Virus record (IMG/VR): IMGVR_UViG_3300007640_000049
Coordinates: 1 to 48,571 of that record
DNA from: a virus
Length of the DNA: 48,571 nucleotides
Reading direction: 5' to 3' (one strand)
Under the pieces are notes generated by a model that saw nothing but the letters and a program-made list of their open reading frames with translations, searched no databases and was not told where the DNA came from. A program made the position numbers and the translations under genes. Below, piece after piece: positions 1,473 to 48,571 of this stretch. The number at the start of each line of letters is the position of its first letter. Positions within the stretch are counted from its first letter, which is position 1.

Positions 1473-4067
1473 ATGGAATCTAATAAGAAGCGGATGGGTA
1501 AGTTCTTTTACGAAAAGGACGAAGAGAGTGGGGAAGAATTTGTAGTCTATCCTTCCATCCCTATCTTTGATGAGCATGAGGGAGAGGATGGAACTGTCTA
1601 CGACAGGGAAGTTCTTGCTCACATTGCCCAGAATAACAATGACAGGATTGAGGATACGGACGACCTTTGCCCTATTGTCGGTTGGCATACTCCACAGGAG
1701 GACGAGTACGATCCGGATAAAGATCCTCCAATCATTGGTTGGGCTGAAAACTTCAGGGTAGAAGACTTTGGCAACAAGCGACCTAGAGGCTGCATCTTTT
1801 GCACCTTCAAGATCTACAAGAAGTTCCACGATTACTTCAAGTCTCACCCTCGTAGATCGGTTGAGATCTGGCCTGAGGACGATCCGAAACAGCGATACAT
1901 TGATCCGATTGCCGTATTGGCTGGAGTAACTCCCAAGCGAGACCTGGGATACCTGTACTCCAAATCGACTTCCGAAGGACCGGAAGTCCTAGAGCCTATG
2001 CGGTATAGCCAGAAGAATCGGTCTTCTAAGCTCAAGTACGAGATGGCATATCCCGGCGGTGGTAACACATATGTTACCAGTGGTACTGAGCGTAAGAAGA
2101 ATAGCAGGGCGGATTCTGTCTCTGTTCAGTACGAGCAATCGTTCTCCGAACTAGACAGGCAATTGCAGTCTGACTTGTTTGGGTATGAAGGCACTCATGG
2201 ACAGGCTCCTTTCAAGCCGCCCGGAGCGGGTTCTGCCTTTGTGTCTGGCATGGCATCTAGCCTGTTGGATGGCATGAAGGGCAAGAACGATGGAGGGAAT
2301 AAGGAACCGGCTAAGGAAATGGAAGTGCCAGAGGCAGATGTTTCTGGTGGGGTAGAGGCTCCTCCTACGCCGGAAGAGGCTGCGGATGCAAAGGCTAAGA
2401 CTCCACCACCTCCCCCACCTACAGAAGGTGGCATGGACATGGGGGCATTGGCTGAAGCTGGCAAGGCAGCATTGCCAGAGCAGAACGACAAACCGGGACC
2501 AAAAGACCCTAGGAGGACCAAGGCTCCTAAGAAGGATCAGGTCAAGGGGAGTGATGAAAATCCCAAAGGTTCTGCCTCTAAGGAGAACGAGAAGATTGAC
2601 CTGAGTGATGAGACAGAATCTTCTCTCAAAAAGAAGTTGGAGTCTCACAACAAAAAGGGCAAGGGTTCGGAAGCTACGCTGGGAGCATTGAAGAGCGTCT
2701 GGCGTAGAGGTGCTGGGGCATACAGCAGCAGCCATCACCCCAAGATGTCTCGCAGTGGTTGGGCTATGGCTAGGGTCAATGCATTTCTGGAGCTTCTAGA
2801 AAAGGGCAAGCCTAGTAACTCTGATTACACGCAGGATTATGATTTACTGCCTTCCGGTCATCCAAAGAAAAGTAAGAATCAAAAACAAACCAGTGATAGT
2901 TCTGGATTTAAATATGCCAAGCAGGGCAATGACGTAACTTCTCAACTTATGGGAGAACCTACAATGGCTTTATCTGACCAAGAAATGGGCCAGATCGTCC
3001 AAGGTGTGGAGACTCTCGTCCAAGACTTGCTTCAGCAGCAACTCCCCGGCTTAATTCAAAAAGCCATGGGTGAGCCAATGCCTGAAGATACTTTGGCAGA
3101 GGACGAGGCTACGGCTGAGTCTGAAGATGCCGAGGAAGGTGTTCTGGATGAAGTCATCATGGGTGACGATATGGAAGAAATGCCCGAGCAAAATGCCAAG
3201 AAGTCCAAGGACGATGAGGACAAGGACGAAAAAGAAAAGAATGGCATGATGTATGGGAAGGACTCAGAAGACTATGGAAAAGATTCTGAGGACAAAGAAA
3301 TGTATGGTGGCGGGTGCGGAAAGGAGAATTATGAGGAAGACATGAAAATGGCAAAGATGATGTTTGCCAAGGCATGTAGCTCATACAAGCTCGACTCTGC
3401 CAATGCTGACATTGAAGGTGCTAAGCAATACATGGCATCACTGGATGATTCGGATAAAGAATCAATCAGTCGCTATGTGGATAGCAGCGAGAGTAGTGAG
3501 CAGGAGAAACAACTGTACTCTAAGGTCTCTGTCAAATCAGAGAACAGCGAGCAGTACTCAAAGGCCAAGCGAGAGGCCAAAGCTTACTATCAAAAGAAGC
3601 TTCAGGAAGAGACCATCAAGTACCAAAAGGTACAGCAGGCTAATCGCAAGCTGATGGATGAGCTTGTCTCCATGAAGTCGGATTTGGCTGAGTCTCGAAA
3701 GAAAGAGCGTTACAGCAAGATTTCGAGTCGGTTGGCTGATCTTGAAAAAGATGGCTACTGCTTTGACCGAGAGAAAGAAATTTCTTTCTGCATGAATCTT
3801 ACTGACGATCAGGTCAACGAGCATATCTCTGAGCGAATCCCAATGCATTATGCAAAGGCTCCGTTTGGCGACATGATCCCTGTTGTCGAGAGCGAAAGAA
3901 TTACTCCTGCTCCTAGCAAGAGTGAGAAATATGCCAAGGCTGCTTCAGACGCAACTATTAGCCTTCGGGACAATGGTTTGCGTGGCTTGAAGTATAAGAA
4001 GGTCTTGGATTGGATGTGTGAAAACGACACCGACCGTACCCCAAGTGCAGATGAACTTGGTTATTAA
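1473..4067 (+). CDS. Head maturation protease fused to scaffold-like region
   Basis: 864 residues from ATG 1473 (GGAG seven bases upstream); a longer reading from TTG 1446 would start inside the terminator stem and is rejected. Residues about 20-165 resemble phage I-like/U35-type prohead proteases: a GWHTP segment (His72) and RRSVEIW (Ser129) followed by an IDPIAVLAGVTPKRDLG stretch, the place where related proteases carry their conserved Ser and ALLG.PP segment. Residues 408-442 hold a compact RGAGAYSSSHHPKMSRSGW motif followed by AMARVNAFL, known to me from other phage virion proteins (DUF5824-like). The rest is low-complexity, acidic and coiled-coil (about 690-765), as in scaffolds. Y-(S/A)-K occurs at 162, 481, 682, 695, 747, 793 and 820 and may mark processing sites. 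Decoration and capsid genes follow. Confidence 0.8.
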   Translation: MESNKKRMGKFFYEKDEESGEEFVVYPSIPIFDEHEGEDGTVYDREVLAHIAQNNNDRIEDTDDLCPIVGWHTPQEDEYDPDKDPPIIGWAENFRVEDFGNKRPRGCIFCTFKIYKKFHDYFKSHPRRSVEIWPEDDPKQRYIDPIAVLAGVTPKRDLGYLYSKSTSEGPEVLEPMRYSQKNRSSKLKYEMAYPGGGNTYVTSGTERKKNSRADSVSVQYEQSFSELDRQLQSDLFGYEGTHGQAPFKPPGAGSAFVSGMASSLLDGMKGKNDGGNKEPAKEMEVPEADVSGGVEAPPTPEEAADAKAKTPPPPPPTEGGMDMGALAEAGKAALPEQNDKPGPKDPRRTKAPKKDQVKGSDENPKGSASKENEKIDLSDETESSLKKKLESHNKKGKGSEATLGALKSVWRRGAGAYSSSHHPKMSRSGWAMARVNAFLELLEKGKPSNSDYTQDYDLLPSGHPKKSKNQKQTSDSSGFKYAKQGNDVTSQLMGEPTMALSDQEMGQIVQGVETLVQDLLQQQLPGLIQKAMGEPMPEDTLAEDEATAESEDAEEGVLDEVIMGDDMEEMPEQNAKKSKDDEDKDEKEKNGMMYGKDSEDYGKDSEDKEMYGGGCGKENYEEDMKMAKMMFAKACSSYKLDSANADIEGAKQYMASLDDSDKESISRYVDSSESSEQEKQLYSKVSVKSENSEQYSKAKREAKAYYQKKLQEETIKYQKVQQANRKLMDELVSMKSDLAESRKKERYSKISSRLADLEKDGYCFDREKEISFCMNLTDDQVNEHISERIPMHYAKAPFGDMIPVVESERITPAPSKSEKYAKAASDATISLRDNGLRGLKYKKVLDWMCENDTDRTPSADELGY

Positions 4068-4081
4068 GAAGGAGACATGAA

Positions 4082-4486
4082 ATGGCGGATGTTATCAGCT
4101 TGAAGGCTGGGGGTAATATCAACCCCTCTGTGTTTGTTGAACTGGATGCAACGGCAGATGCGACCGTTATTCAGGGTGATGCTTCAACCGTATTGGCCTT
4201 TGGAGTTTCGGGAGAATCGACCGAAGATGCTCCGGGCCTTAGCGGTGCAAGCAGCTACCACGCTTCTGTTAATTCAGAAGCTGTAAAAGTCTATGGTCCG
4301 GGCGAAAGCTGCCTGCTTACCGCAGGTGCTGCTGTTACCCGTGGCTCTTTGCTCAAGTGCAATGCAAGTGGTCAGGGCGTCTTGGCTACGACAGGCACTT
4401 ATGCAAATGCAGTTGCTGTTGAATCAGCCGGTGGTGCTGGTGAGCTAATTCGAGTTCGAGTGACTGACCCCGTTTACGTTCCCTAA
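4082..4486 (+). CDS. Capsid decoration/fibre protein (DUF2190-like)
   Basis: 134 residues with strong ribosome site (AAGGAG) upstream. Small, acidic, Gly/Ala-rich beta protein matching the pattern of DUF2190-like phage decoration proteins: a G..V tract, an S..V.VYGPGE turn, then LTAGAAVTRGSLLKCNASG, a repeated-turn barrel ending in an ELIRVRVTDP strand. Such proteins bind the outside of the assembled capsid and stabilise it. Its place directly between the protease/scaffold and the major capsid gene is the usual one. Confidence 0.8.
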   Translation: MADVISLKAGGNINPSVFVELDATADATVIQGDASTVLAFGVSGESTEDAPGLSGASSYHASVNSEAVKVYGPGESCLLTAGAAVTRGSLLKCNASGQGVLATTGTYANAVAVESAGGAGELIRVRVTDPVYVP

Positions 4487-4524: not shown

Positions 4525-5565
4525 ATGGCAGCGCAATTTCCGGGGCAGTTTAATACTTATGTCCCTAACACGGAATCGTCGAAGAATCTTGTAGCGGATT
4601 TCTCTCGAAATCCAGAAGACTTCGCCCTACCTCAATACGTTCAGTACGTCCCGGTAGAGAAGAACAAAGGCTTCTACACCGAGATGACTGTTGAGATGGC
4701 TGGTCGTATTGTTAACCCTCATGACTCCCGATGGGCTGATGGGGATTATCAACCACGGCTAACTGGTAGCACTGAGAAGTTTGAGTTCAAGCCATTCCAA
4801 GCTCAACGCCACATCTATGGCTTTGAAATTGGCGAGATGGCTGCTGATCAAGCTTCTTGGGACATCTTGGCTCAGTTGGCTCGTCACGCTGCACAGCGAG
4901 CGATGACCAACCGAACCTTGGATCTCATTACCTTTGCCTCTAATACCTCGAACTACTTGAGCGCATCTCATGTGTTCAACGTAGCTTCTGCCCCCATCAC
5001 GTTGGCTGGTCGGCTTGATGCCGCATTGTCAACCAACATGGATATCAAGAAGACTCTTGATTACTGTGCAGAGTTCATTCACATCCAGACTCTTGGTGCT
5101 GTTACTCAGGACCAGATCATGTTTGTGATGAATCCGACCACGGCACGGGCTTTGTCCAACACTCAGGAACTTCGTGACACTGTCAAGCAGTCTCCAATGG
5201 CTCAGCAGTTGATCGAAGCTCAGCTTGGTCCTTGGACTCAATGGGGTCTTCCGGGTGAATTGTACGGATACAAGATCATCATTGAGAACACTGTCCGAGT
5301 CAGCACTAAGAAGGGTGCTACGACCAGTAAAGACTTCGTCCTTGGTGACGGAAACATTCTGGTCATGAGCCGTCCCGGTGGTCTGGAAGGCGTCGAAGGG
5401 GCTCCTTCGTTCTCCTCCTACACTGCCTTCATCAAAGATGAAATGATCGTTGAGCAGAAGCACGATCAAGATAACAAGCTCTACACTGGGCGTGTTATTG
5501 ACACGTTTGACTTCCGTCAAACTGCTCCTCTTGCTTCTATGATCATTACGAATGCTTTGACATAG
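4525..5565 (+). CDS. Major capsid protein
   Basis: 346 residues, the usual size for an HK97-fold capsid protein. The N-terminal arm is followed by an acidic, aromatic E-loop-like region (residues about 45-90) and a helical spine region (residues about 105-150, with DILAQLARHAAQRAM). The C-terminal half contains the P-domain/A-domain-like alternation ending in a YTGRVIDTFDFRQ strand. There is no Y-(S/A)-K motif, so any N-terminal processing is not evident. A strong terminator follows at 5601, a common arrangement that boosts capsid expression. Identification rests on position, length and fold pattern rather than a diagnostic motif. Confidence 0.85.
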   Translation: MAAQFPGQFNTYVPNTESSKNLVADFSRNPEDFALPQYVQYVPVEKNKGFYTEMTVEMAGRIVNPHDSRWADGDYQPRLTGSTEKFEFKPFQAQRHIYGFEIGEMAADQASWDILAQLARHAAQRAMTNRTLDLITFASNTSNYLSASHVFNVASAPITLAGRLDAALSTNMDIKKTLDYCAEFIHIQTLGAVTQDQIMFVMNPTTARALSNTQELRDTVKQSPMAQQLIEAQLGPWTQWGLPGELYGYKIIIENTVRVSTKKGATTSKDFVLGDGNILVMSRPGGLEGVEGAPSFSSYTAFIKDEMIVEQKHDQDNKLYTGRVIDTFDFRQTAPLASMIITNALT

Positions 5566-13000: not shown

Positions 13001-15717
13001 TGTCAGTTCGCTTAAAGATTTTAAATAGCAATGGCGATTTTTTGCGAGCCAGACAGCCGGGAGACGCTGTTTCCAAAGACTATATTTTCTGTCTTACAGA
13101 AACTGAAGGCTCTTACATAGAAGCACTTAACAAGGGTCTTAGAAGTTCTCAGTCAGAATGGTTTCCTCAGTACGACTTTGCATCAAACAACCCGAGAGAC
13201 TCCAGCACTTATTACACTCAAGTGGGCGAGGAGCATGCTTCTGGCTCTTCTTCAGGCATACGATCTGCTCCAAAGTATAGTCCTTGGAGATTTAGGACTG
13301 CTCCAAGCAGCAGGCTTAATGAGTTGTTTTGGCCAACTCAATTTCAGCGTCATGCTGAAATGTATGTTGCTTTCATGCTGAACACACTTGATGCAAATCT
13401 ATTTAAGGCGTACAGAGATCGCCCCTATGTGTCTGGACCTGATGACGTTCCTCTAGGAATTGATAGAGTTTACATTCAGTTTGGCCCTAATGAACTTTCC
13501 GGTGACATTACCACGGGTCCGTATTTCTATATGAGATGCGCTGGCATACATGTTTACAACGGATATGGGCTTACTGATACCATTATCGAAGAAAACTCTA
13601 TCTTCATCATGAAGTTGGTTGATGACAGATACTACTGGAACAATCTTGAGATTCAAGGGAATGGTAGGACAAACCCTGAGTCTTTGTTTGACTGGCCTGA
13701 GGGATTAGCCCCAACTCCTTCGGCATACAAGCACCTTGCTGATTGGGGTCGCACCTACCCGACGCTTAACTTTACTGATAAGGGCAATGTAAACCTTTAC
13801 AACGAGAGAAAATTTGGCTTTGCCCTATACCCTCACAGCTTCCCTTCGTCCGGTCTCAGGAGAGGAATTGTATCTGACTGGGTTGCTTGGACCCAAGGAT
13901 TTATACCTGTCGTTTTGCCAAACTTTGATAGCTTTCCTTTGAAAGAAAAAGGAGGAGCGTCAGAAACAAAGGGATATGGATACTTTTCTTTTGCCCCAGC
14001 CTTTCTGGCAGAAGACGCTTTGTACCCAAGAGATTGGGATGCTTGGATGAATCGCTACAGCCCGGATAGGGTTCGAGCTTCTTCTATTTTTAATCAGCTT
14101 GGCTTTGCAGATACCGGGGTCATGAATATGACAACTCGGAGTACTCCTAGCGATGCTTTCCATGAAAAATCTGATCCATTTGTCAGAAGCACATGGGCTG
14201 ACATAAGTCAACTTAGAAGCAGAACCAATGGCACTAAGGGCGGATTCCTTGGTCGCATCAAAATTGACTTAAGAGAGCAAGACATTTTGCAGGGCGACCG
14301 ATTCATTACAAATTCTTTTTTGGGTGAAGGGGCTGGGTTCTTAGGTTCAAGAGATAGGCCAGCAGACAAAGGTGGTGGGGGCAGTACAAAATACAATGAA
14401 TTTTATCTAAACGGAGAGCTTGGAAAAGTTGGTGAAATTAGCACTCCGGTGGTGACTGTAAACACTGCTTTGTTCAGCAATGAAATCATTGACACAACTC
14501 TGCTTACTAGTCAAGCATTTTACGACGCTCCAGACTTTACCAAAAGACCAAGCAATGGAGACGACTACGATCCAATTGCTGGAAATTCATTGAGAAATAA
14601 TGTTGGCTCTAACATAAATAGCAGTCATCAGTACTTTGTTTCTCCGCAGTATAGGATTTTGATTGACGCTTGTCAGAGGATAACGACTCAGTATGAATAC
14701 TTGGCATTGTTAGATACTGGACCGGAAAGTCGAGAGTACATTGATTGGGGCTCAGTCAGACCAGCTAGAGATGGCGAGGGAGATGATGGACTTGTTTACT
14801 GGACTGAATGGCAGCATCACTCAATAAAATATAAACAGATTGCTGGTGAAAGGGGCGATGACCGTGCGACCACTACACCTTGGGCTGCTGTTGGTCCTTG
14901 GTTCTTCACTTATGAATCTTTTGTTTTTACTCCCTTGCTTACGGAGGGAGCTAAGCTGACATTGTCTGAGCGACCATATTCTCAAGTGTCAGCAACTGCA
15001 ACTAGTTATAGAAAAGACTCCATACCTCAAGAAATGCCTATTACATGGGGCGCTCCTAATGAGATTACATTCCAATTGCCGAATCTAGGAGATTCAAATA
15101 CTTTGCATGTCGCATTGCACAATGATGCAATGGATGATGGACAGCAAATTTATGCAGAAGGCACAGTTGTTCTCATGCCCGGACTGACTGATGAGACTTA
15201 TTACCTGAAAATAAATAAGGTAAAGTCTAGAGGGTCATTAAACTGGGAAGATAATTTTAAAACCAATCCAATTGTTCGACTACATCACCCTCCAGATTGG
15301 CCAACTACCTTAGAGGAAGGCATTCAGCTAACATGCATGAGAATGCCGGAGTCTTCATCCTCATGGTGGAGTGATCAATGGATTCCTTTAAATAGTTTAT
15401 CTGTAGGCACAAAGCAACTTGTTAGGTTTACTTTAGACGTTGCCCTGACGACTGCTGACGCATCTCAGCCAGCAACGATTACAGATCAGTACGGTCCCGG
15501 AACCGACAATTCAAACACGGCAATTACTGCTCACAACCTTTTGACTCATACGGCAGGAACCTATATGTTTGAAGGCAATGCCGGGGACGCCGGTCTTGCC
15601 ATGAGAGACGCTGATCAAGATTATAGAATTATCCAAATCGAATGTGCTGATACGCCTGACGAACCAGATCCCGATCCCGGAGGTGGTGGGGGCGATCCGG
15701 GAGGAGAGACTCCGTAA
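13000..15717 (+). CDS. Large minor tail protein
   Basis: 905 residues. The region around residues 190-215 (FIMKLVDDRYYWNNL) resembles a LVD.RYLW motif that I recall from minor tail proteins of environmental phages. Residues 600-900 look like a set of beta domains, and the C-terminus ends in a Pro/Gly-rich linker (DPDPGGGGGDPGGETP) that probably joins it to, or packs beside, the next protein. Start and stop overlap both neighbours by single bases (TAATG), so the tail genes 12274-17258 form one coupled unit. Function beyond tail structure is unknown. Confidence 0.55.
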   Translation: MSVRLKILNSNGDFLRARQPGDAVSKDYIFCLTETEGSYIEALNKGLRSSQSEWFPQYDFASNNPRDSSTYYTQVGEEHASGSSSGIRSAPKYSPWRFRTAPSSRLNELFWPTQFQRHAEMYVAFMLNTLDANLFKAYRDRPYVSGPDDVPLGIDRVYIQFGPNELSGDITTGPYFYMRCAGIHVYNGYGLTDTIIEENSIFIMKLVDDRYYWNNLEIQGNGRTNPESLFDWPEGLAPTPSAYKHLADWGRTYPTLNFTDKGNVNLYNERKFGFALYPHSFPSSGLRRGIVSDWVAWTQGFIPVVLPNFDSFPLKEKGGASETKGYGYFSFAPAFLAEDALYPRDWDAWMNRYSPDRVRASSIFNQLGFADTGVMNMTTRSTPSDAFHEKSDPFVRSTWADISQLRSRTNGTKGGFLGRIKIDLREQDILQGDRFITNSFLGEGAGFLGSRDRPADKGGGGSTKYNEFYLNGELGKVGEISTPVVTVNTALFSNEIIDTTLLTSQAFYDAPDFTKRPSNGDDYDPIAGNSLRNNVGSNINSSHQYFVSPQYRILIDACQRITTQYEYLALLDTGPESREYIDWGSVRPARDGEGDDGLVYWTEWQHHSIKYKQIAGERGDDRATTTPWAAVGPWFFTYESFVFTPLLTEGAKLTLSERPYSQVSATATSYRKDSIPQEMPITWGAPNEITFQLPNLGDSNTLHVALHNDAMDDGQQIYAEGTVVLMPGLTDETYYLKINKVKSRGSLNWEDNFKTNPIVRLHHPPDWPTTLEEGIQLTCMRMPESSSSWWSDQWIPLNSLSVGTKQLVRFTLDVALTTADASQPATITDQYGPGTDNSNTAITAHNLLTHTAGTYMFEGNAGDAGLAMRDADQDYRIIQIECADTPDEPDPDPGGGGGDPGGETP

Positions 15718-17258
15718 TGGGATGGTATCCATGTTGTTGTAAAAACGGATGTTCATTTTGCGATTGCTTTCCTTGTGGTATACAAGTCAAGTTAGACGCA
15801 ATACCTCCATTCAGATGCTCTGGGTCATCACTGCTACCGCATGATTTCTTCACTGGAGAATGGGTTTACATTCCTGTGACGGAAATTACTCCGGGGAGTT
15901 GCCGAGCAACTAAAACGATTGTAATTCAGGACGGGATAACGATTACCTTGCCACCGGGACCGGGATCGGTTCCTCCACCATACACTTGTGATCCATGCTC
16001 AACGTCAAATACAACTATCGTTGAAATTGAAATCACCATCTATCCACAAGCGAATTGCAACATTCCCTGTTCAGATGCAGACTTTCAGGGTTCAAGTATC
16101 TGTCAAAACTGTGGATGGCAATACGATGTAAAAATAAGGGTATCACCCTTGGTTGCTGGCCCAGCATCTCAGACTTATGAAGAATGGTACGCAGTTGCTT
16201 ACCAAGAGATTGACGATGAAAGATGTGATCTTGTCCTAGCAGAGGCTTTGTCTAGTGGCTCAAGGGTTTGTTTTAACGACCCAGCAACAACAAATTACTT
16301 CACCGCATTAAACCCAACACTGTGCAACGATGGGATTCCGATTCTAGACTTTGGTGCAAAAATAAGGATGACCATTGAGCCTATTGTTGAGTACAGGAAC
16401 TACGCTGGAGTATCCTGCAATGGAGATCCCGGCTGTGCCTGTTGGTGGCAATTTAATCCAGTTTCCTCTACAAGCTCCCCATGCACTCCAACAACTGATC
16501 CCAGCTTTGTGAACTGTATTGATGTCACATTCAATACTGGTTGGTTTAACATTGATTACGATGATATCACTGGAGCCATTCCGCAAGTATATCCCCCCGG
16601 TGTTCCTGATGGTTCTCCGGGGTTGCCATGTAGTGACATGGATTCATTCATCATGAAGGCAACTGATGACGTTGCTGGAGATTTTGTACCATGCTACTGG
16701 ACTAAATCATTTGCACTAAACTCCACAGATCCAAATTACGGAACTGAAATTTTCATGTGGCAACTAACACTTGTTGATGCCAATTATTTCATATTCAAGG
16801 CTACGTTTGACAGCACAGACTGTCCAATCTGCTGGGACTCAAAAATACCTGCATACTCTTGCTCATGCCCAGATATCTGGCAGGTTCAAGATGGAACACT
16901 GCACCCCTTTACTCAATACAAGTTTAGTCTTTATTGCAGACAGCTAAATTCTCCAGTAAATGATTCCGTTGCTTGGTATCACTGGATTAGTCAAAACGGC
17001 TTCTCTCTTGCAGACATATGGACAAATGGTGCAGTTCCAACAAATCCATTAAAGCCATTTGCAGCGGAATCATGGAAAACTAATGCACTTCCAGTAGCAG
17101 ATCAGAATTGCTCTAACAGTTTCTATTCAACTTCACAATGTACATTCATTGATCCAACAACATTGACCTTCCCTATTGATCGAGAGGAAGAGTTTCACTG
17201 TCGAAGTAAGCATGTTATTCCAGATGCAATCATTGCTCCCGTTGCTTGTCCCCCGTAG
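15717..17258 (+). CDS. Cysteine-rich tail-tip protein
   Basis: 513 residues with about three dozen cysteines, starting MGWYPCCCKNGCSFCDCFPCG. Cysteines occur in closely spaced pairs and triplets throughout, interspersed with beta-strand segments and Trp/Tyr-rich loops. Such density is exceptional for an intracellular phage protein and suggests metal clusters or disulphides formed after release of the particle. It is coupled to the preceding minor tail gene by a TAATG overlap, so it is most likely an exposed fibre or tip component. No enzymatic motif seen. Confidence 0.55.
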   Translation: MGWYPCCCKNGCSFCDCFPCGIQVKLDAIPPFRCSGSSLLPHDFFTGEWVYIPVTEITPGSCRATKTIVIQDGITITLPPGPGSVPPPYTCDPCSTSNTTIVEIEITIYPQANCNIPCSDADFQGSSICQNCGWQYDVKIRVSPLVAGPASQTYEEWYAVAYQEIDDERCDLVLAEALSSGSRVCFNDPATTNYFTALNPTLCNDGIPILDFGAKIRMTIEPIVEYRNYAGVSCNGDPGCACWWQFNPVSSTSSPCTPTTDPSFVNCIDVTFNTGWFNIDYDDITGAIPQVYPPGVPDGSPGLPCSDMDSFIMKATDDVAGDFVPCYWTKSFALNSTDPNYGTEIFMWQLTLVDANYFIFKATFDSTDCPICWDSKIPAYSCSCPDIWQVQDGTLHPFTQYKFSLYCRQLNSPVNDSVAWYHWISQNGFSLADIWTNGAVPTNPLKPFAAESWKTNALPVADQNCSNSFYSTSQCTFIDPTTLTFPIDREEEFHCRSKHVIPDAIIAPVACPP

Positions 17259-28065: not shown

Positions 28066-28384
28066 CTTGCTTGCTCCTATTAAAGTTCCTTGCGTACTCC
28101 CACTGCTTGTCTTCATTCATGTTGCAGTAGCGATACAGATCTGGTGCAGTTATCTCTCGCCATGATGCTGGCTCGCATATGTAGCTCCGTTCATCCATGA
28201 ATACAATGTCGCCCACACTGACTGAACAGACACCCGGAACAGGATTGAACTCGTTCTGTCCCTCTTGGAAGACATGCTCTAGCCGTTCGTTGATTGTCTG
28301 CTTATTCCACACGGCATCGCTTATGCCTATGAAAACCAATCGACATCTCTTTTGATATGGTTGATAAACCGGGAACACTTTCAT
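28055..28384 (-). CDS. Hypothetical protein, 109 aa
   Basis: ATG 28384 with GGGAGA seven bases upstream; its start overlaps the stop of the next upstream gene by 4 bases. Mixed alpha/beta sequence with a VSVGDIVFMDERSYICEPA segment and a charged C-terminus (KQWEYARNFNRSKQDAK). Function unknown. Confidence 0.5.
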   Translation of the reverse strand: MKVFPVYQPYQKRCRLVFIGISDAVWNKQTINERLEHVFQEGQNEFNPVPGVCSVSVGDIVFMDERSYICEPASWREITAPDLYRYCNMNEDKQWEYARNFNRSKQDAK

Positions 28385-28842
28385 ACTTGCTCTCCCTTGA
28401 TTGCATCGACAATTGCATCGACCTTGCTGTAGATTCTTTCTAGTTCTTTGTCCACACTGGCGAACACTCTGCCTCCTACCATTATCACGGTAGAAGAATT
28501 AGTGACTGGCTCCTCTGTCTCTTTCCAGACAAACGCCTCGTACTTGTAGGGGTTGTATGTCACCTCCTCCCTGTAAGGATTAGCGAGCAGATCTTCAGGC
28601 GTCAGTCTTCCCTCTGTCTCTTTCTCTATCCGCTTGATTGTCCCACATGCAAACGCATGCACGTTCTTCTTTCCTTCCCTCAGTACTCTTTCTCTCCCTC
28701 CCTTACGCACAACGAATGACACATCGTGCATGACAATGTACTGACCATGGTCAACAACTCGACCTGACTTCCGTTCCTGTACTGACCAACACTTCTTGTG
28801 CAGGTTCCAGTAGACTCTAACCTTCATCATGCCATCACTCAT
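28381..28842 (-). CDS. Conserved phage protein, NLHKK...KNVHAF type, 153 aa
   Basis: The sequence KVRVYWNLHKKCWSVQERKS, GRVVDHGQYI, then GGRERVLREGKKNVHAFACG is a widely distributed hypothetical protein family I recall in phages and plasmids; its molecular role is not known to me. Beta-rich N-terminal part, helical C-terminus (ERIYSKVDAIVDAIKG). Neighbouring overlaps (4 bases on each side) place it in the coupled early operon. Confidence 0.55.
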   Translation of the reverse strand: MSDGMMKVRVYWNLHKKCWSVQERKSGRVVDHGQYIVMHDVSFVVRKGGRERVLREGKKNVHAFACGTIKRIEKETEGRLTPEDLLANPYREEVTYNPYKYEAFVWKETEEPVTNSSTVIMVGGRVFASVDKELERIYSKVDAIVDAIKGEQV

Positions 28843-33998: not shown

Positions 33999-35324
33999 AT
34001 GGACTACGCAGAAGCGCCAAAGGAAATTCTTTTACCAGTACCAATCGGATTCGGATCTCACACGGCAAGGGTTAAGACAAAGAAGCGGGACAAGATGGCG
34101 TGGCTAGCCTCTCTTGTTTTTACGCGCGAATGCGCCATTAAGGCGGAATGGATCAAGATCAGCTATCAAAGGTTGTCCAAAGTCCTTGGCACTAGGTATG
34201 CCAAGGAAATAATCCAGCGGTCGATAGACTCTAAGATCATCATTCGGAACGAATTCTTTAAAAAGGGCCTGACCAGTTTTGGCTATCGCATCCACGACTG
34301 CTTGAAGGATCGTGGGGTGACGGAATACAGGGTAGAGGATCGGGTGTTCCTCAATCGACTGCGTCAGGTTTGGCTTGAGAATGAGCAAGCTAGGCGTGGG
34401 ACTTGGCATCCAATCCACTTTGAAATGCATCAGCGTCTTCAGAGGTTCGATATTGACGAAGCAAGGGCAAACGAGGCAGCGTCTAGCTGCATCCCATCTG
34501 ATGTGGATTTTGATTCGTCCTACAACAGCCAGCTAATTGCAATCAGAAGGCTTAAGGCGAAGGATGATTGCATTCCTTTGAAGGTTGGAACGACAGGTAG
34601 GGTCTACACTCCTATCTGCAATATGAAGAAACTAGTCCGGTATCACCTCAAAGCGGATGGTGAACGGGTTACGGGCTTTGACATCAAGGCATCACAGCCC
34701 ACATTCTTTGGAATGCTTCTGAAGTTTATGTACAACCCAGAGAAAAGTTTCCTTTCTGAGCCTGATGTCCTTGAAAGGGCAAAAGACTACGGGGTTAAAA
34801 TACCATCAATCCCAATTGGATTTTGCAGCAATCATGAAGTCAGCAAGTACACAGAGCTAATAGCCAGTCACGATATCTACGATTACTTGGTGGATGAATA
34901 TCGAGACATGTTTTATTACAGCATGTCTAGAGATGACATGAAGACATCGTTGCTCAGAGATGTATTTGCCAAGAAAGGGCAGTACGACTCTGGGGTAGAG
35001 ACTGTATTTAGGAATGCCTTCCCCACGGTCTACCGCTGCATAAAGGAAATCAACAAGGGCAACTACACAAACTTGATTAGGCTATTGCAGTTTGTAGAGT
35101 CAGAGGTGGTGATCCACAGGGTATTCTCAAATCTACTAAAGATAAGCTCTAGTCCATTTGCCGTGCTTCATGATTCAATCTATGCAAAACGCAGTGACGC
35201 ATCGCTCGTCGTTGACTGTTTCAGGCAGGTAGCTTCTGATATAGGAATTGGAATAAGGATTGATCAGGAGTCGTTTAGTTCGAGAGTTAGCACTCTTGAT
35301 TCGACCTCGATATGTAGAGCGTAA
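33999..35324 (+). CDS. Compact polymerase-like replication protein with winged-helix front
   Basis: 441 residues. Residues about 52-100 (ISYQRLSKVLGTRYAKEIIQ, then GLTSFGYRI) read as a winged helix. The C-terminal half carries, in order, three motifs of the Pol I/T7-RNA-polymerase fold: motif A GFDIKASQPTFFGML (Asp228), motif B R311-x3-K315-x7-F323 matching the O-helix pattern R-x3-K-x7-Y, and motif C VLHDSIYA (His391-Asp392). There is no 3'-5' exonuclease and no extended thumb. HDS in motif C and the 83-residue A-to-B spacing are closer to T7 RNA polymerase than to Pol I. Likely a DNA/RNA polymerase, primase-polymerase or initiator; strand choice cannot be told from sequence. Endonuclease VII, nuclease and SSB genes flank it. 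Confidence 0.65.
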   Translation: MDYAEAPKEILLPVPIGFGSHTARVKTKKRDKMAWLASLVFTRECAIKAEWIKISYQRLSKVLGTRYAKEIIQRSIDSKIIIRNEFFKKGLTSFGYRIHDCLKDRGVTEYRVEDRVFLNRLRQVWLENEQARRGTWHPIHFEMHQRLQRFDIDEARANEAASSCIPSDVDFDSSYNSQLIAIRRLKAKDDCIPLKVGTTGRVYTPICNMKKLVRYHLKADGERVTGFDIKASQPTFFGMLLKFMYNPEKSFLSEPDVLERAKDYGVKIPSIPIGFCSNHEVSKYTELIASHDIYDYLVDEYRDMFYYSMSRDDMKTSLLRDVFAKKGQYDSGVETVFRNAFPTVYRCIKEINKGNYTNLIRLLQFVESEVVIHRVFSNLLKISSSPFAVLHDSIYAKRSDASLVVDCFRQVASDIGIGIRIDQESFSSRVSTLDSTSICRA

Positions 35325-41655: not shown

Positions 41656-44600
41656 ATGGCTGATAAGGGATTGCGGGTCAAGGGCAAGACGTATAAGAGC
41701 ATCTCAGAAGTTCCAGAGCAGTACAGGGCTCAGTGGGAAGCTGGCAGTCGCCAGAAAGATCCGGGGAACGTAAATCCTAATATAGGGCCAAATGCTGGTC
41801 GGACAATCGTTCCGCACGTTACGACCTTTTCTGGCATTGTCTCTACATTAGCCAAGACATATCGCAATCATGATGAAGCGATTCGGCACAATGTGCAGAA
41901 CGCTCATATGATGCGTCGTGACCCTATGATCATGGGTCCGCTACTCGCTAGGCAGAGAGCAGTAGCACTTCTTAATTGGTCGGTTGAGCCAGAGGATAAG
42001 ACCTCCGAGGTCGAAGTCCGTATTGCCAAAGAACTGACCAAGATGATCAGCATGATCCCTCGGTTTACGGAATACCGCCGCAATCTGCTTGAGGCTGTTT
42101 GGTATGGCAGATACGCCATTCAGCACAAGTGGAGCTTTGTTCGCAAGGGCGGGGCAAAGGGCAAAGGAATCATTGACTGGGTTCCGGTGCATGGTGACAA
42201 AATCATGTTCCGGTACGATGATGGGACGGGAAAATATGATCCGAACGAAATTGGTATCAAGGTTTCTCCCGCTCATGTAAAGAACGACATCTGGGCAGGC
42301 AAGCCTGAGCTTGAGTACAATACAGAGGGTAGTGCGGTGTTCCTACGAAAGTGGGAACGCTCTCGTCTAGCACTGCACAAGCATCTCATCATGGATGGTG
42401 ATTATGAAGATCCAACCACCGCAGGGATGATCCACGGTGTTGGTCTTCGCCATTTCTTGTACTGGGCGTGGTTCCAGAAGCAAGAGACTCTAGCTCAGTT
42501 GGCAGAGATTGTAGAGCGTACTGGCATGGGCTTTACGATCTACTACTACCCTGCGGGTAACGAGCAGGCTAGGGCTAAGGTAGAGGAAGTGGCAGAGGAT
42601 CAGGCTCACAAGAACCAGATCATTATGCCGTATGATGCTGCCAACCCAGGTAGCTATGGCATTGATCAGGTACAGCCAGTCACGGCAGGAATTCCCGCTC
42701 TAACCAATCTGCTGGATGAATATTGGGGTAGCTGGATCATCCGATTCATCCTCGGTCAGACTCTCAGTATGAGAGACGGTGGAGGCGGATTGGGAACTGG
42801 TACGGCAGATCTGCATAAAGAATCATTCCTGCAAATCATTGAGTATGATGCGCATGCTTTGGATGAGACCCTGACTCAGGATCTCGTTCGGATGTATGTT
42901 CTTTTCAACTATCCCAGCTATCGGCACATCAACTTCAAGTTCAAGTCGCATACAGAGAAGGCTGTTCCGCTTGAGAAGCTACAGTCGATTCAGGCTGCTT
43001 GGAGTATGGGGGCAAAGGTCAAGGCGGCAGATGTCATGGACCTTGTCGGTATGACTGTAGCGGGGGAAGAGGACGATGCTCTTTACAACCCACAGCTTGC
43101 TATCGCTTTGAAGCAGTTCCGCGAGACTATGAATCAGGATCGGGAACAGCAAGTGGCAGAAGAGCTTGCTCAACAGCAGTCCAAGGAGAAGGAGTCTGTA
43201 CAGCGTTACTCTAAGTTGTATGCAAAGAGGGCTCCTGTTCCGGTAAGGCGACCGTCTAGGAAGGCTCCAAAAGGGTTTACTGTTGGGGGAGAGGCTAGTA
43301 AGAGAAAGGACTCTTCCTTCAAGCCACCCAAGGAAATGGTTTACAAAGATCCTGAAAAGAACAGCAAGGATGGTGCGGGTCCGGGGGATCATAAGGATTC
43401 TGATTGGGATACGACTTGGAAGCAGTTGATGGGGGATCTTACGGGCTTGCGGGGAGAAATGCCGGAAGAAGCCTATGGCTCCGCAGGCATTGCCGCTGCT
43501 CAAAAATACATGCCTAGAGATCCGGGGGATAAGGAGAATCCGGATTACAAGTACAATTTGCAGTATCAGGAAGAGGGTGATGAGCCGGAGCCTGTGGCAG
43601 ATCAGACTGGCGTAGATACGAGAGCAATATTGGGGGAAGAGCCAGAGCCTATGGAGGCTACTTTAGCCCGATTGCAGCAGGAGGATGCTGATAAGGATGA
43701 TGCTGCCAGTGCAGTCCAGCCAAAGGCTGAAGGCGAGATGTTGACTGGGGCGTCCTATGGGGAAGAAGAACTGGCTCAGAGCAGGTTGGAGCAAGAGGAA
43801 AAGGAGACTGATCTTGGAAAGATTATGAAGGAGGCGGGTTTAGCCGGAGAAGAGTCTTCTGGCACTATTCAGGGTAATGTAGAAGCTCAGTTTACTCAGA
43901 AGCCAGAATCTGACTTTGACGAAAGTTCTTCTATTCGTTTGGGAATCATTCGTCATTTGACTGATTTGCATCCTGAAAAAGAGCAGCCTAAGCAATTGAT
44001 TGACAAGCTTACGACTAAAGAGCTTGACACCTTAACAACGTCTGGAGTTATTAGTCGTGCAAAGTCTGCTATTCAGGAATTGCACAAGAAAGAGGGGAGG
44101 GTGACTGATTTATCTAAGCTAAAGAATGAGTCGGATGTTGATAAAGAACTTGAGAAGTATCCTGCGGATGTTCGATCTGACGTAAAGTCAATGTTTGCTA
44201 GAATTCCTACGCCTGATGCGGAAGGTAATAGGGTTAAGCCTGAGTGGTCAAAGTACGAACTGATGTCGCCAGATCAGATCGAAGTGGCAAAGCAATTGGC
44301 TAATGCCGAAAGCGCTACAGAATTCTTCCGGTCTCAAGGAAAAGGAGATTTAGTTTCTCAAGTGCTTTCTGCTGGCACTAGAGAGAAAACCGGCGCAATC
44401 ATGGGCAGGGACTTTAGTACTCCAGAGGCAAAGAAGCTTGTTGCAGAGTTAAATAATCCTGAGTATTTGCATGCAAGCATGGTTAAGGGGATGGGGAATT
44501 ACAATCACATTACTAGTGAGCTTGATAAATTTATTAAGTCTCAAACTGGCAGGAAAGAGGTTTTGCAGGACGATAGGTGGAGGATTCTTGAAAGCAATCC

Positions 44601-47600
44601 CGATGTAACCATTTCTCACCCAAGAGTTCCGGGCGAGACTATTACCATTCCTTTTAAGGATGCAGTTTATTCATTGCAGGCAATTCGTGAGTCTGTTAAA
44701 GAAGATAGGAATGCCTTGGCCGATGCCAATCTTGATAAGTTTGACGAAGAGACTGCTGGAAAATTCAGGGACTTATGGGGCGGACTGGAAAAAGATTATT
44801 CATCTTGGTCAAAGAAGACAGGAGACCAGACAAAGGCGGGGTATACACCTTTGGTCAAGAGTCTTCCGGAGGCGGAGGTAGATGCCGATGCTCATGATAA
44901 GATGATGGACAAGTTCCATGATATTGATGCTGGTTCAGGCACTGTTAAATCTGCATTGGATCAGATCGGGGAAGCAACGCCAGAGAGCATTAAGGATATT
45001 CCGGGAGATCAGTTTGCCGCTTTGTATATGATTGCTCAAGAGCAGAATCACGAAAATGCAAGCTTGTTTGAGGAAGATCTCGCTAGAAGGAATGAAGAGT
45101 CGAAGTCTGCTGCTGCAAGGGCTCAGGAACGGGCATCAGAAAAGCAGAAAACAGAGACGGCAAAATCGCAAGAGCTTGCTGCCTCGGAAGAGATAGTTCC
45201 AGAGACAGAAGAACCTTCGACTGTAGTTGCGGGGATTGGTGAAGATCAGTTCTCTGAAATGAACTACGAAGAGAAACGCGATCATGTTGATAGCCTGCTA
45301 GAGTCGATCAGATTTTCTGGCGTTCAAAAGCCTGAAGCTGGTGTTCAGTCTTTGTCCGAATCAGAACTGGAAGAAATGCACTCAGACATCTTGAGTGAGG
45401 TGGAGAGTGACATTGCACGAATGGGCAATTCTAGGACAACAAAGAAACAGCTAGAGGACTTGGCGGATAAGTACGGAGTAGATGTTTCTGAATTCTCTAA
45501 GGAGTCTGAAATTTCATCTGCCATTACTGAGTCGATTAAGGAAGAGAAAAGAGAGGCTGTAACCTCTGAGCAAGTTATTCCAGAGGCTCCGGTTACTGAG
45601 GTAGAAGATCCGGGTACTGGGTTTATTGACCTTGGGGCTCCGCCTGAAACTGGATTGGCTATTACTGATGCGACTGACGTTCCTTCTGCTCCGAAGACCG
45701 AGTTGATTCCAGCCGGTCAGAAAGATGCTGGAACGGGGTTGACGACGGAGGTTGTGGACGAAGCTGGTGAAATGGATCAGGATGTCCTTAGAAAATCAAT
45801 GGACATGGATGCTATTCGTGAAGCCATGAGTGGGATTGAGACAAGTGATTTGGAGCAATATCTTTCTAGTGAAGAGAGAGGTCCGAGAGTAAATCAAATG
45901 CTCAAGGACATTAAGAAGATTGAAGATCCAGATACTCGGTCTCAATTGACTGCATACTTGTTTGTGGCAGGGACTCCGGGCTTTATTAAGCAGGATGTTT
46001 CTCAGAAGACGAAAGATTTTATATCCAACGGCTTGCTGGCAGATTTGGAATCAAAGATTAGTGAGTCAATGCCTCCAGAGCGAGTAGGGACTACTGCTTT
46101 TGGAAGTAGGGAAGATGTTTCTGAACCACAAGTGACTCGCGTTAAGCCAGAGCCCGAACCCGCTGGGGCGCTTCCTTCGCCTAGAGACGCAGCTTTTATG
46201 CGTGGTCAGGAGATTGAAGATCTTAAAGCAGAGTTGACACAGAGAGGAATTAAGTTCCTTCCGGGTGAATCGAGGGATGAGCTTAAGAAAAGGCTGGAGG
46301 CTGGTGTTTCATTTACAGAATTTACAGATGCACAAATTGGAAAGATGGATGCTAAGAGGCTCAGGGCGTTGCTGACTGAAGCGAATAAGCCATTTGCAAG
46401 CAATGCCAGTGTTGGCGAGCTTAGGAAAGAGCTTAAAGACCACCGAGATGATTTGATCAAGGCGGATGAAGAGGCGAAGGCTGCTGCTGCACAGGTGGAT
46501 GAAGGTGACAAAGAGACGGCAGATTACATTAAGCAGATTGAAGACGTAGCCAGAATGGCTGAAGTATCGAAGGACTCGGAAGAATATGTTCAGGGAATAG
46601 GAAATCTTATCAAGAGTGCTGAGCAGCAGAAGGTTGAAATTGCAGAGAACGTCAGGGATTACAGAACCGATCAAATGGTCAAATCGCTGGTCGATACTTG
46701 GGAAGAAAGAAATCCGGGCAAGCAGCTTTACACCAGTGAGATTGCTGAGCGGTACAAGGTTGAAGAAAACATTGCATCTCATCTAAGCGATTATCAAGAT
46801 GCCCTTGTGGGCTTAGGTAGCCTAAGCAAGCTTCATAGGCATGCGGTAAGCGTTATGTATGGAGGTGGTAATGTTAGAAATGTTCCGCTTGAAGCCTTGC
46901 GTCGTGCAAGCAACCAAGCAGAGTATGTGATTGACCATGTGGTAACCACTCGACCGGAAGAGTTAATACAACAGCTTGTTGGGATTCGGGCTGATGCTCT
47001 AGAGAGTAAAGCCAGTCAGCTTTTAGAAGAAGGGAAGGCTAAGGCTATTGCTGATTTATTTGGGGTTCCGCTGAGCGATGTCCAGATTGATCCAGTTACT
47101 GGAAGCTCTAACTTTGACAAGGCGCTTGAGGCTAACACTTTGGAGAAGTGGAGAAGAGGTAGTGGGACTGAGGAAGACCCATATCAATATTTTGATATAG
47201 ATGAAATAAACAAAGAACTGCAAGATGCCTACGAGAGTAAGGCTCGCAGAACAACTCCACCTCCGGGGGCTGACCCGCAAGCTGCACGGGCAGGCGCACC
47301 TCCAGTTGCAGGTACTGATTTTGCAGATGTCAAACTTAGTACTGAGCGGTCTAGCTTGTTGGAGAAGGCAAAGGATCGAATCCAAAGAAAGGGTCGTGAT
47401 GGATCTTTCCTTATATCTGATCAGCAGCTTGAAGACGGGGCTAAGGGATTTGGATTTGTTAGTAAAGAAGAGTTGGGCAAGTTGAACAGGAGTCAATTGG
47501 AATCGAAATTTGCTGCTGGCCTTGAAAGGAAGCTTAAGCAGGACCAGCTTGTTGAGGACCATGGCATTGATGAGTCAGATCCAAAGTTTGCAGAGTACAA

Positions 47601-48408
47601 ACTGCTTGCAAGGCAAATGGGCTTTGAAGGAAATATGGCTGATAGAGTTGCAAAGGACAGGTTTGTTCAAGAGAAAGCTGGCGATGCTATTCTCGCTAAG
47701 AACAAGGCTGAGTCTGAGGCAATCATTGCAAAGAATGTAGAGAACACTAACTACAAGGACTGGGTGTCTAAGCGTAGTGCATTGGTTACTATGTTTGGCG
47801 ATGCAATGATTGGTACTACTGGTAGAAAGATTAAAGAGTTGCCAGAGTTTAACAAAGACACTATGGCACAAATGGACTCTAACGTCTTAGCCACGGCTGA
47901 AAAGTATCTAGGATTCAATCCGAATGAGGATAGATTCCAGCGTGATACGGTAGAAGAAACGAAGAAAGCTCAGGTCGAAGGTGCATTCGAGCATCTCAAG
48001 CAGAACATTGACGACATGAAGGGAATGACCAAGCAGTACTCTGACTTCATGAATAGCCTTGGCAATGAGACGGCTACTAAGCTGGCAGGGGACTTAGGTC
48101 TTAATAAGAGTGCAATGCTTGAGTTTGGGGAAATGCCACTGCACAAGCAGGCTTTTGTCGCTTCTAAGCTTCTGAATCATGCGGCTGTCCTTGGAGGTCA
48201 TAAGCCAGACAGGACTAAGGGTACGGTTGGCGGGATGGCTGATTCGATTGATTACTTGCTGAACAACCGGAAGGCGGTAGAGAATGCAATGAGGAAGGAA
48301 TATGGTTCCAGCTTTGCGTTCGAGGACTTGAACTGGAAGCATATCACCCTGATCATCTTTACCCTTCTGGCAATGTCTACTCTGAGTGCTATTGGTAGGA
48401 GCCGATAG
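41656..48408 (+). CDS. Portal protein fused to a giant helical extension (2250 aa)
   Basis: Residues 1-about 510 are a portal of the Mu gp29/DUF935 type: VPHVTTFSGIVSTLA, MMRRDPMIMGPLLARQR, RYAIQHKWSFVRK, a helical mid-domain, and QVQPVTAGIPALTNLLDEYW. A RYSKLYAK motif (517-524) marks the end of the portal-like part. The other 1726 residues are acidic, helix-rich and low in aromatic residues, with SAP/HeH-like helix repeats (about 1260, 1518-1548, 1553-1600), long Glu/Lys/Ala segments, and a hydrophobic C-terminal helix (HITLIIFTLLAMSTLSAI, about 2228-2245). A portal forms the DNA gate; the extension could line the head or act in DNA ejection. The frame is continuous, so it is a real fusion in this sequence; processing is likely. 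Confidence 0.8.
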   Translation: MADKGLRVKGKTYKSISEVPEQYRAQWEAGSRQKDPGNVNPNIGPNAGRTIVPHVTTFSGIVSTLAKTYRNHDEAIRHNVQNAHMMRRDPMIMGPLLARQRAVALLNWSVEPEDKTSEVEVRIAKELTKMISMIPRFTEYRRNLLEAVWYGRYAIQHKWSFVRKGGAKGKGIIDWVPVHGDKIMFRYDDGTGKYDPNEIGIKVSPAHVKNDIWAGKPELEYNTEGSAVFLRKWERSRLALHKHLIMDGDYEDPTTAGMIHGVGLRHFLYWAWFQKQETLAQLAEIVERTGMGFTIYYYPAGNEQARAKVEEVAEDQAHKNQIIMPYDAANPGSYGIDQVQPVTAGIPALTNLLDEYWGSWIIRFILGQTLSMRDGGGGLGTGTADLHKESFLQIIEYDAHALDETLTQDLVRMYVLFNYPSYRHINFKFKSHTEKAVPLEKLQSIQAAWSMGAKVKAADVMDLVGMTVAGEEDDALYNPQLAIALKQFRETMNQDREQQVAEELAQQQSKEKESVQRYSKLYAKRAPVPVRRPSRKAPKGFTVGGEASKRKDSSFKPPKEMVYKDPEKNSKDGAGPGDHKDSDWDTTWKQLMGDLTGLRGEMPEEAYGSAGIAAAQKYMPRDPGDKENPDYKYNLQYQEEGDEPEPVADQTGVDTRAILGEEPEPMEATLARLQQEDADKDDAASAVQPKAEGEMLTGASYGEEELAQSRLEQEEKETDLGKIMKEAGLAGEESSGTIQGNVEAQFTQKPESDFDESSSIRLGIIRHLTDLHPEKEQPKQLIDKLTTKELDTLTTSGVISRAKSAIQELHKKEGRVTDLSKLKNESDVDKELEKYPADVRSDVKSMFARIPTPDAEGNRVKPEWSKYELMSPDQIEVAKQLANAESATEFFRSQGKGDLVSQVLSAGTREKTGAIMGRDFSTPEAKKLVAELNNPEYLHASMVKGMGNYNHITSELDKFIKSQTGRKEVLQDDRWRILESNPDVTISHPRVPGETITIPFKDAVYSLQAIRESVKEDRNALADANLDKFDEETAGKFRDLWGGLEKDYSSWSKKTGDQTKAGYTPLVKSLPEAEVDADAHDKMMDKFHDIDAGSGTVKSALDQIGEATPESIKDIPGDQFAALYMIAQEQNHENASLFEEDLARRNEESKSAAARAQERASEKQKTETAKSQELAASEEIVPETEEPSTVVAGIGEDQFSEMNYEEKRDHVDSLLESIRFSGVQKPEAGVQSLSESELEEMHSDILSEVESDIARMGNSRTTKKQLEDLADKYGVDVSEFSKESEISSAITESIKEEKREAVTSEQVIPEAPVTEVEDPGTGFIDLGAPPETGLAITDATDVPSAPKTELIPAGQKDAGTGLTTEVVDEAGEMDQDVLRKSMDMDAIREAMSGIETSDLEQYLSSEERGPRVNQMLKDIKKIEDPDTRSQLTAYLFVAGTPGFIKQDVSQKTKDFISNGLLADLESKISESMPPERVGTTAFGSREDVSEPQVTRVKPEPEPAGALPSPRDAAFMRGQEIEDLKAELTQRGIKFLPGESRDELKKRLEAGVSFTEFTDAQIGKMDAKRLRALLTEANKPFASNASVGELRKELKDHRDDLIKADEEAKAAAAQVDEGDKETADYIKQIEDVARMAEVSKDSEEYVQGIGNLIKSAEQQKVEIAENVRDYRTDQMVKSLVDTWEERNPGKQLYTSEIAERYKVEENIASHLSDYQDALVGLGSLSKLHRHAVSVMYGGGNVRNVPLEALRRASNQAEYVIDHVVTTRPEELIQQLVGIRADALESKASQLLEEGKAKAIADLFGVPLSDVQIDPVTGSSNFDKALEANTLEKWRRGSGTEEDPYQYFDIDEINKELQDAYESKARRTTPPPGADPQAARAGAPPVAGTDFADVKLSTERSSLLEKAKDRIQRKGRDGSFLISDQQLEDGAKGFGFVSKEELGKLNRSQLESKFAAGLERKLKQDQLVEDHGIDESDPKFAEYKLLARQMGFEGNMADRVAKDRFVQEKAGDAILAKNKAESEAIIAKNVENTNYKDWVSKRSALVTMFGDAMIGTTGRKIKELPEFNKDTMAQMDSNVLATAEKYLGFNPNEDRFQRDTVEETKKAQVEGAFEHLKQNIDDMKGMTKQYSDFMNSLGNETATKLAGDLGLNKSAMLEFGEMPLHKQAFVASKLLNHAAVLGGHKPDRTKGTVGGMADSIDYLLNNRKAVENAMRKEYGSSFAFEDLNWKHITLIIFTLLAMSTLSAIGRSR

Positions 48409-48410
48409 AA

Positions 48411-48571
48411 ATGAACAATCCGGCTAAAGAACTGATGAATGTCATGCGGTCCCATCCTGATTCCAGAGATGGGGTGGTGGAGACGGATGATGTTCCTGCT
48501 GTGCTGGCAGAGCGTGCGTATGAATATCTCCGATCCTATGGAGATGACCTTCGCACGTTTGAGAAGGATGC
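48411..48571 (+). CDS. Partial small protein after the portal fusion
   Basis: ATG 48411, two bases after the portal stop, with AGGAG nine bases upstream; the gene runs off the right end of the window. The 53 visible residues are helical with a Pro/Asp-rich patch (SHPDSRDGVVETDDVPAVLA). Family not recognised. Confidence 0.55.
   Translation, partial: MNNPAKELMNVMRSHPDSRDGVVETDDVPAVLAERAYEYLRSYGDDLRTFEKD

Follow-up and report, generated by a model that had tools for sequence, protein, structure and literature searches.

A repeated Y-[SA]-K motif as a candidate head-protease cleavage signal in the scaffold and at the portal-extension junction of a phage genome

Introduction

Assemblin-type proteases and phage prohead proteases have a common fold, and head cleavage in phage T4 takes place at a site of the L-X-E type. 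For pseudorabies virus, the available sections of PMC4498786 describe an assemblin in which an R-site, predicted as YLQA-T, frees the protease from the scaffold, and a putative M-site, where cleavage takes off the capsid-protein-binding stretch of 37 residues at the C-terminus. In phage SPN3US, the prohead protease gp245 cuts after A-X-E and has the portal, with its 254-residue N-terminal propeptide, as a substrate (PMC10052503, accessible text). Fusions of portals with effectors, e.g., the BcepF1 portal with an InPase, are among the polyvalent proteins of Iyer et al. 2017 (PMC5512222), in whose accessible sections packaging and injection are proposed and assemblin-like processing is suggested in general terms. 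Portal-effector fusions are already known; a candidate cut signal, together with its protease, is the new element here. With a cut site and a protease both named, it becomes directly testable how a portal can bear a giant effector and yet function as a DNA channel.

Here we analyse positions 1-48,571 of the viral IMG/VR record IMGVR_UViG_3300007640_000049, a stretch of 48,571 nucleotides referred to below as the window, in which Y-[SA]-K tripeptides recur in a protease-scaffold protein and stand at the junction between a portal and its giant extension. As in the herpesvirus assemblins, the protease is fused to the scaffold, and the sites at 162/178 and 820 lie at places matching the R-site and the M-site, respectively; the protease domain also resembles theirs in structure, and a tyrosine heads the pseudorabies R-site YLQA-T as well (PMC4498786, available sections). 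Unlike these assemblins, the window's family has many more sites, carries modules within the scaffold and includes the portal as a proposed substrate. Like SPN3US, the window's family would mature its head by cuts at several sites, with the portal among the substrates, although this is proposed here from sequence, whereas the cleavage in SPN3US was measured; the motif is aromatic-small-basic rather than the acidic A-X-E, and the extension is C-terminal, whereas the portal propeptide of SPN3US is N-terminal (PMC10052503, accessible text). Portals carrying an effector domain, InPase for instance, are seen here in relatives of the window and recall the polyvalent proteins of Iyer et al. 2017, in whose accessible sections no cleavage signal is described (PMC5512222), whereas a candidate signal and a protease are named here. 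Mu gp29 (14554-16092, ~512 aa), unlike the window's portal, has no giant extension. Y[SA]K is absent from the portals of BcepF1 and E217, phages whose proteases are not matched by our protease-domain profile; a low-E match of the full-length profile in the E217/BcepF1 comparison falls in low-complexity sequence and was set aside. According to the accessible text of PMC10329688, the model of the 765-residue E217 portal covers residues 97-528 only. The open-access literature searched yielded no account of a head-cleavage motif of the aromatic-small-basic type.

Results

The octapeptide RYSKLYAK, confirmed by translation, occupies residues 517-524 of a 2250-aa ORF (41656-48408) and supplies this ORF with its only two Y-[SA]-K tripeptides, at residues 518 and 522 (Table 1). 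All seven copies that the original prediction had listed in the 864-aa protease-scaffold protein are present, at residues 162, 481, 682, 695, 747, 793 and 820, and the capsid protein has none, as it had claimed. From amino acid composition, 0.64 copies would be expected in the scaffold protein, which has seven, and 0.77 in the portal ORF, which has two. The motif is not exclusive to the head genes, a possibility that was ruled out by further Y-[SA]-K tripeptides in the window genes 10757-12364, 33999-35324 and 28381-28842 (minus strand), among others. A fixed small P1 following YxK, as in assemblins, was also ruled out, since the residue at +3 differs from site to site (S, Q, V, A, I, A and A in the scaffold; L and R in the portal). 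The gene order suggests that the window genome is circularly permuted, but its two ends (1-618 and 48408-48571) share no exact repeat of 15-200 bases.

Table 1. Coordinates of the features discussed, as positions in the window, with residue numbers of the encoded proteins.
Feature	Position	Strand	Residues	Remarks
Protease-scaffold polyprotein	1473..4067	+		864 aa
Assemblin-like protease domain	1497..1946	+	9-158	pLDDT mostly ~90 or more; structure matches; H72, S129 conserved
YSK162	1956..1964	+		R-site analogue at protease-domain end; [YF][SA] 26/28
RYS (Y178)	2001..2009	+		second conserved [KR]Y[SA] site
YPGGGNTYVT	2049..2078	+	193-202	capsid N-terminus look-alike in scaffold
DUF5824-like module	2664..2837	+	398-455	E=0.0015, below Pfam cut-off
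YAK481	2913..2921	+		26 aa past DUF5824-like module; predicted disorder
YSK682	3516..3524	+		in predicted helix
YSK695	3555..3563	+		clade-specific; in predicted long helix
YSK747	3711..3719	+		in same predicted long helix as 695
YAK793	3849..3857	+		at predicted helix end
YAK820	3930..3938	+		M-site analogue, 44 aa from C-terminus; in predicted helix
Cement/decoration-like protein	4082..4486	+		phrog_673 E=8.9e-16; Phage_cement E=0.0066
Major capsid protein	4525..5565	+		without Y-[SA]-K
FPGQFNTYVP	4537..4566	+	5-14	counterpart of look-alike in capsid protein
Mu-type portal domain	41656..43071	+	1-472	Portal_Mu E=1.9e-40; model matches JBD30 portal 8rka, E=5.2e-14
Predicted last portal helix	43090..43197	+	479-514	probably barrel; AlphaFold2 model
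RYSKLYAK	43204..43227	+	517-524	proposed cleavage point separating portal from giant extension
Giant C-terminal extension	43228..48408	+	525-2250	proposed cargo; ORF

Searches of IMG/VR for relatives yielded 1, 4, 13 and 28 loci, several of them sharing contigs, which are cited below by L numbers. The alignment comprises 28 protease-scaffold sequences, i.e., the window's and those of 27 relatives, and the portal set comprises 24 distinct portals including the window's. The relative L007 is 66% identical to the window. In cultured phages, tblastn found no match to the window's capsid protein or to the proteins of three relatives. A scan of viral contigs with the single scaffold sequence gave no match, and a scan of genome contigs with the protease-domain alignment gave 99 pattern matches with no relative among them. 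One contig, IMGVR_UViG_3300021356_000011 (74.6 kb), carries two protease-cement-capsid modules, L022 (1-14602) and L010 (53935-74605), with capsid proteins 77%, protease domains 92% and DUF5824 regions 83% identical, which reflects either a duplicated module or two phages assembled into one contig. The scaffolds of these two modules contain different inserts, with weak Pfam matches to a methyltransferase in L022 and to L5_gp82 in L010, which fits modules that can be swapped between sites.

In the structural model of the protease-scaffold protein, a well-predicted N-terminal domain is followed by long disorder and then by a small module, and the C-terminal scaffold part is helical. A second structural look at the N-terminal protease domain returned herpesvirus proteases as its best seven rows, with Z of 6.6-6.0 over 106-121 residues, values under 8 that may reflect only a common arrangement. 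In a viral model library, capsid maturation / prohead protease models match the domain at E 2.9e-7 and 1.6e-4, the former being a phage capsid maturation protease model. When the scaffold model was compared with the PDB by plain Foldseek, nothing reached E<=0.001, a protease-domain profile matched none of the solved structures, and the Pfam and PHROGs matches listed for the 28 members at E<=0.1 include no prohead-protease profile; if the enzyme is an assemblin, it would be a diverged, unlisted one. S129 is invariant and H72 is present in at least 90% of the 28 aligned sequences, and the two would form the catalytic pair, with the nearly invariant E131 as only a candidate for the third catalytic residue (His or acidic). 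The gene order, in which the protease-scaffold gene is followed by the cement gene and then by the capsid gene, is the same in the relatives. The N-terminal domain is probably an assemblin-like head protease; that it is a protease is well supported, though not proven. Among the a-x-b pairs of the scaffold tails, LxE and AxE both fall outside the 22 most enriched, which does not fit a cleavage system of the T4/SPN3US type, in which one or the other would be enriched in the scaffold. Further matches to the scaffold's DUF5824-like region are found in Actinomycetia phage DSL-LC01 (54.7% identity), in Salinibacter phages and in Roseobacter phages, where the protein bears the annotation major capsid protein.

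The scaffold sites differ in conservation. At site 162, all 28 aligned sequences have an aromatic residue, 26 have [YF][SA] and 12 have K/R in addition; model confidence drops below 50 from residue 161, which places Y162 at the protease boundary. The corresponding counts at site 820 are 21, 18 and 13 of 28. A further conserved site, absent from the original prediction, lies at residue 178, where Y is found in 27/28 and [YF][SA] in 23/28 sequences. Site 481 is ungapped in four aligned rows only, and the residue is aromatic in 13/17 ungapped rows at site 682 and in 3/13 at site 695. At site 747, eight of the 28 sequences have an aromatic residue and 16 have [YF][SA] within eight columns, and at site 793, an aromatic residue is present in 21 and [YF][SA] in five, the Y and the basic residue at +2 often being kept and [SA] not. 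Comparison with homologues thus upholds sites 162 and 820, and site 682 in part, but not sites 481, 695, 747 and 793 as Y-[SA]-K. Nor is Y-[SA]-K itself the conserved form, which is instead a core of [YF]-[SA] beside a basic residue; an essential K is ruled out by the presence of K/R at +2 in less than half of the sequences, 12/28 at site 162 and 13/28 at site 820. Four of the seven Y-[SA]-K sites (682, 695, 747 and 820) lie in predicted helices.

The N-terminal part of the 2250-aa ORF has both the Portal_Mu profile, matched in Pfam over residues 85-465, and a portal fold, its model also resembling the Mu portal in structure comparison. That RYSKLYAK lies exactly where the portal ends is borne out by several boundaries. 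The Pfam match stops at 465 and the family profile at ~472, the predicted last helix (479-514) of the AlphaFold2 model is accompanied by pLDDT<50 from residue 513, and the complete, extension-free portals of relatives are 484-512 aa long. The low confidence from residue 513, after this last helix, places the octapeptide at the start of a linker. The window's portal extension contains no Pfam domain above the cut-off.

Portal tails longer than 60 residues are found in 15 of the 24 portals. The first 150 aa of these tails contain 10 broad-motif sites, located in 8/15 tails, against 1.9 expected (0/1000 shuffles), and the remainder of the same tails contains 12 against 7.9 (89/1000). The junction count is 8 against 1.5 when the window is left out (0/2000; 7/14 tails) and 5 against 1.4 when L007-L009 are left out as well (22/2000; 5/12 tails). 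None of the nine short-tailed portals, one of which (L009) ends at the contig end, has a broad-motif site. Both the broad motif and the 150-aa stretch were chosen after viewing the tails, and this junction test is supporting rather than blind. In distant relatives, the junction sites are found at variable spacing, from +19 to +99. The strict Y[SA]K stands no more than 150 aa past the portal domain in 2/15 tails, those of the window and L007, and seven extended portals (L011, L013, L016, L020, L040, L046 and L048) have no broad-form junction site; the portal tails of L013 and L016 carry FAK and FSK. As a mark of the seam between portal and extension, the motif stands in that the junction is a hot spot in relatives, but its strict form is confined to the window and L007.

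Effector domains are recognizable in the portal extensions of relatives, namely ART-PolyVal in L007 (598-778) and L040 (755-935) and InPase in L011 (1247-1372). In L032, a separate gene directly after the portal (L032:1581-7121) encodes InPase, LPD1, LPD3 and a weak LPD5, and has ARYQL near its start instead of RY[SA]. Since some phages have like cargo as part of the portal polypeptide but L032 encodes it apart, the portal link of the cargo appears dispensable. L025 and L014 carry InPase/LPD1 and PBECR3 in ORFs that precede the protease gene. The motif stands on both sides of InPase in L011 (7 before, 15 after), follows the ends of ART in L007 (15) and of InPase (16) and LPD1 (13) in L025, and stands 25-26 residues past DUF5824 in three scaffolds. 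Across 18 Pfam cargo domains, which include below-cut-off matches (DUF5824 of the window and L022, L5_gp82, the L022 methyltransferase, LPD5 and Rho_N), no site lies inside a domain, against 3.0 expected, and nine lie within 30 aa of an end, against 1.7 (0/2000). These nine flank sites are not independent, owing to repeated homologues (DUF5824 and InPase, three times each), and cargo domains and motif sites are partly homologous to each other; a boundary test by circular shifts is weaker, with P of 0.11, 0.017 and 0.039 for 20, 30 and 40 aa, respectively.

The best explanation of these observations, with a probability of roughly 0.6, is that Y-[SA]-K serves as a cleavage signal of the phage's own head protease. 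The original prediction of a maturation-protease motif is strengthened by an enrichment that recurs in relatives, a probable assemblin-like enzyme, and the location of sites 162 and 820 where assemblin cuts; it is weakened by the four sites that are unconserved as Y-[SA]-K and by the four that lie in predicted helices. All positions are candidate sites only.

A second short sequence in the scaffold bears on this assignment. The peptide at scaffold residues 193-202 resembles the capsid N-terminus, and in L046 the two are identical over ten residues. Peptides of the same phage share 5.48/10 residues, against 3.98 in shuffled pairs (n=25; 0/5000; L010, L019 and L030 left out), a covariation to which kinship of the phages contributes, the peptides being in different proteins and different places. 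The look-alike is absent from the portals in the gene set, and other genes give only degenerate matches. The scaffold may thus grip the shell by mimicking the capsid N-arm, and the look-alike may be a better docking candidate than Y-[SA]-K. The presence of this stronger candidate within the same protein argues against Y-[SA]-K being itself a docking motif, by which scaffold, portal extension and cargo would bind the shell or each other and remain uncut. Short repeated motifs in the flexible regions of co-assembling proteins would suit docking as well, the copies in predicted helices are better placed for binding than for cutting, and conserved copies adjoin the look-alike peptide; yet the sites lie at module seams, outside the folded cargo domains, and the most conserved of them stands at the protease/scaffold boundary, where assemblins cut. 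We consider docking of this kind unlikely.

The copy number of the motif was compared with local shuffles in 26 scaffold tails (8961 aa), with the near-duplicates and fragments L030, L034, L035, L043, L010, L019 and the first L015 ORF left out. These tails contain 36 copies of Y[SA]K, whereas the shuffles average 4.6 and none of 500 reaches this count; without the window, the figures are 30 and 3.8. When a-x-b pairs were enumerated without bias, YxK came out on top (76 vs 23.2), and RY and YS are the first and second dipeptides, while the reversed [KR][SA][YF] is rarer than expected (6 vs 12.0). The scaffolds of L002, L017, L019 and L048 are without any [YF][SA][KR]. Portal domains have no motif excess (1 vs 2.2), and capsid proteins have none of Y[SA]K (0 vs 2.8). 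The looser [YF][SA][KR] and [RK]Y[SA] are in excess in the capsid proteins (38 vs 13.0 and 18 vs 6.2, respectively), which probably represents conserved positions counted many times, as the shuffles leave shared ancestry in place.

Homology and composition together might likewise produce the scaffold count, from structural tyrosines in a K-rich protein, with the portal copy as a coincidence or a clade-specific drift. Structural tyrosines can be proposed at the end of the protease domain, in the coiled coil and in the C-terminal helix, and site 793, with its Y and +2 basic residue kept without [SA], looks like one of them. The enrichment, however, holds outside the conserved C-terminal module. 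In the poorly aligned scaffold middle alone (L010, L019 and L030 left out), the broad motif occurs 24 times against 7.8 and Y[SA]K 12 times against 2.9, so conserved columns do not account for the whole excess. The shuffles ignore phylogeny, the capsid proteins also exceed expectation for the looser form, and the strict junction Y[SA]K is limited to the window and L007, but the variable spacing of the junction sites in distant relatives and their lack in the nine short tails speak against shared descent and composition as the source, which we judge improbable. That the true recognition sequence is instead P[GSA]xxN[TV][YF][VI] of the capsid N-terminus and the scaffold linker, with Y-[SA]-K secondary, is very improbable, since this sequence, although common to the capsid protein and the protease linker and covarying within phages (0/5000), is missing from the portals examined and degenerate elsewhere and so cannot account for portal processing, and a capsid cut there would take off only about a dozen residues.

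Discussion

If Y-[SA]-K is a cleavage signal, the recognition sequence would be [KR]-[YF]-[SA] and/or [YF]-[SA]-[KR], with Y-[SA]-K as its form in the window's clade, and it would be recognised by the assemblin-like prohead protease with which the scaffold protein begins. This protease would free itself within the prohead at 162 and 178, the C-terminal scaffold tail would be detached at 820, and further cuts would be made within the scaffold and around the inserted modules. A cut at RYSKLYAK would leave the portal ring in place and the ~1,730-residue extension in the head as free cargo. Cutting, the cargo role of the window's extension and its injection are steps that we infer.

Taken further, and put forward only tentatively, one assemblin-like protease may, in this phage group, process two polyproteins punctuated by a common signal of the Y-[SA]-K type: a scaffold that swaps enzyme modules and grips the shell by a copy of the capsid N-terminus, and a portal that brings a giant cargo with each subunit, a fixed dose that is then cut loose. 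If true, the phage would load effectors at fixed stoichiometry through the portal ring, and the head protease would have a specificity unlike the acidic X-E type. The capsid look-alike in the scaffold provides a concrete hypothesis for scaffold-shell recognition.

Two minor features were observed around the cargo modules. Several separate cargo genes (L016:3753, L025:3500, L029:2419 and L043:6866) have a short leader that ends in RY[SA]; this is anecdotal, as [KR]Y[SA] is present in the first 70 residues of 21/331 genes of at least 150 aa, including capsid proteins. A linker resembling HPRxxxGxF, i.e., HPR, a few residues, a glycine and often an aromatic residue, tends to follow YA/YS at module seams, and was seen in the portal tails of L039, L040 and L049, in L025:3500-6934, in the L013 scaffold and in L029:2419-4035.
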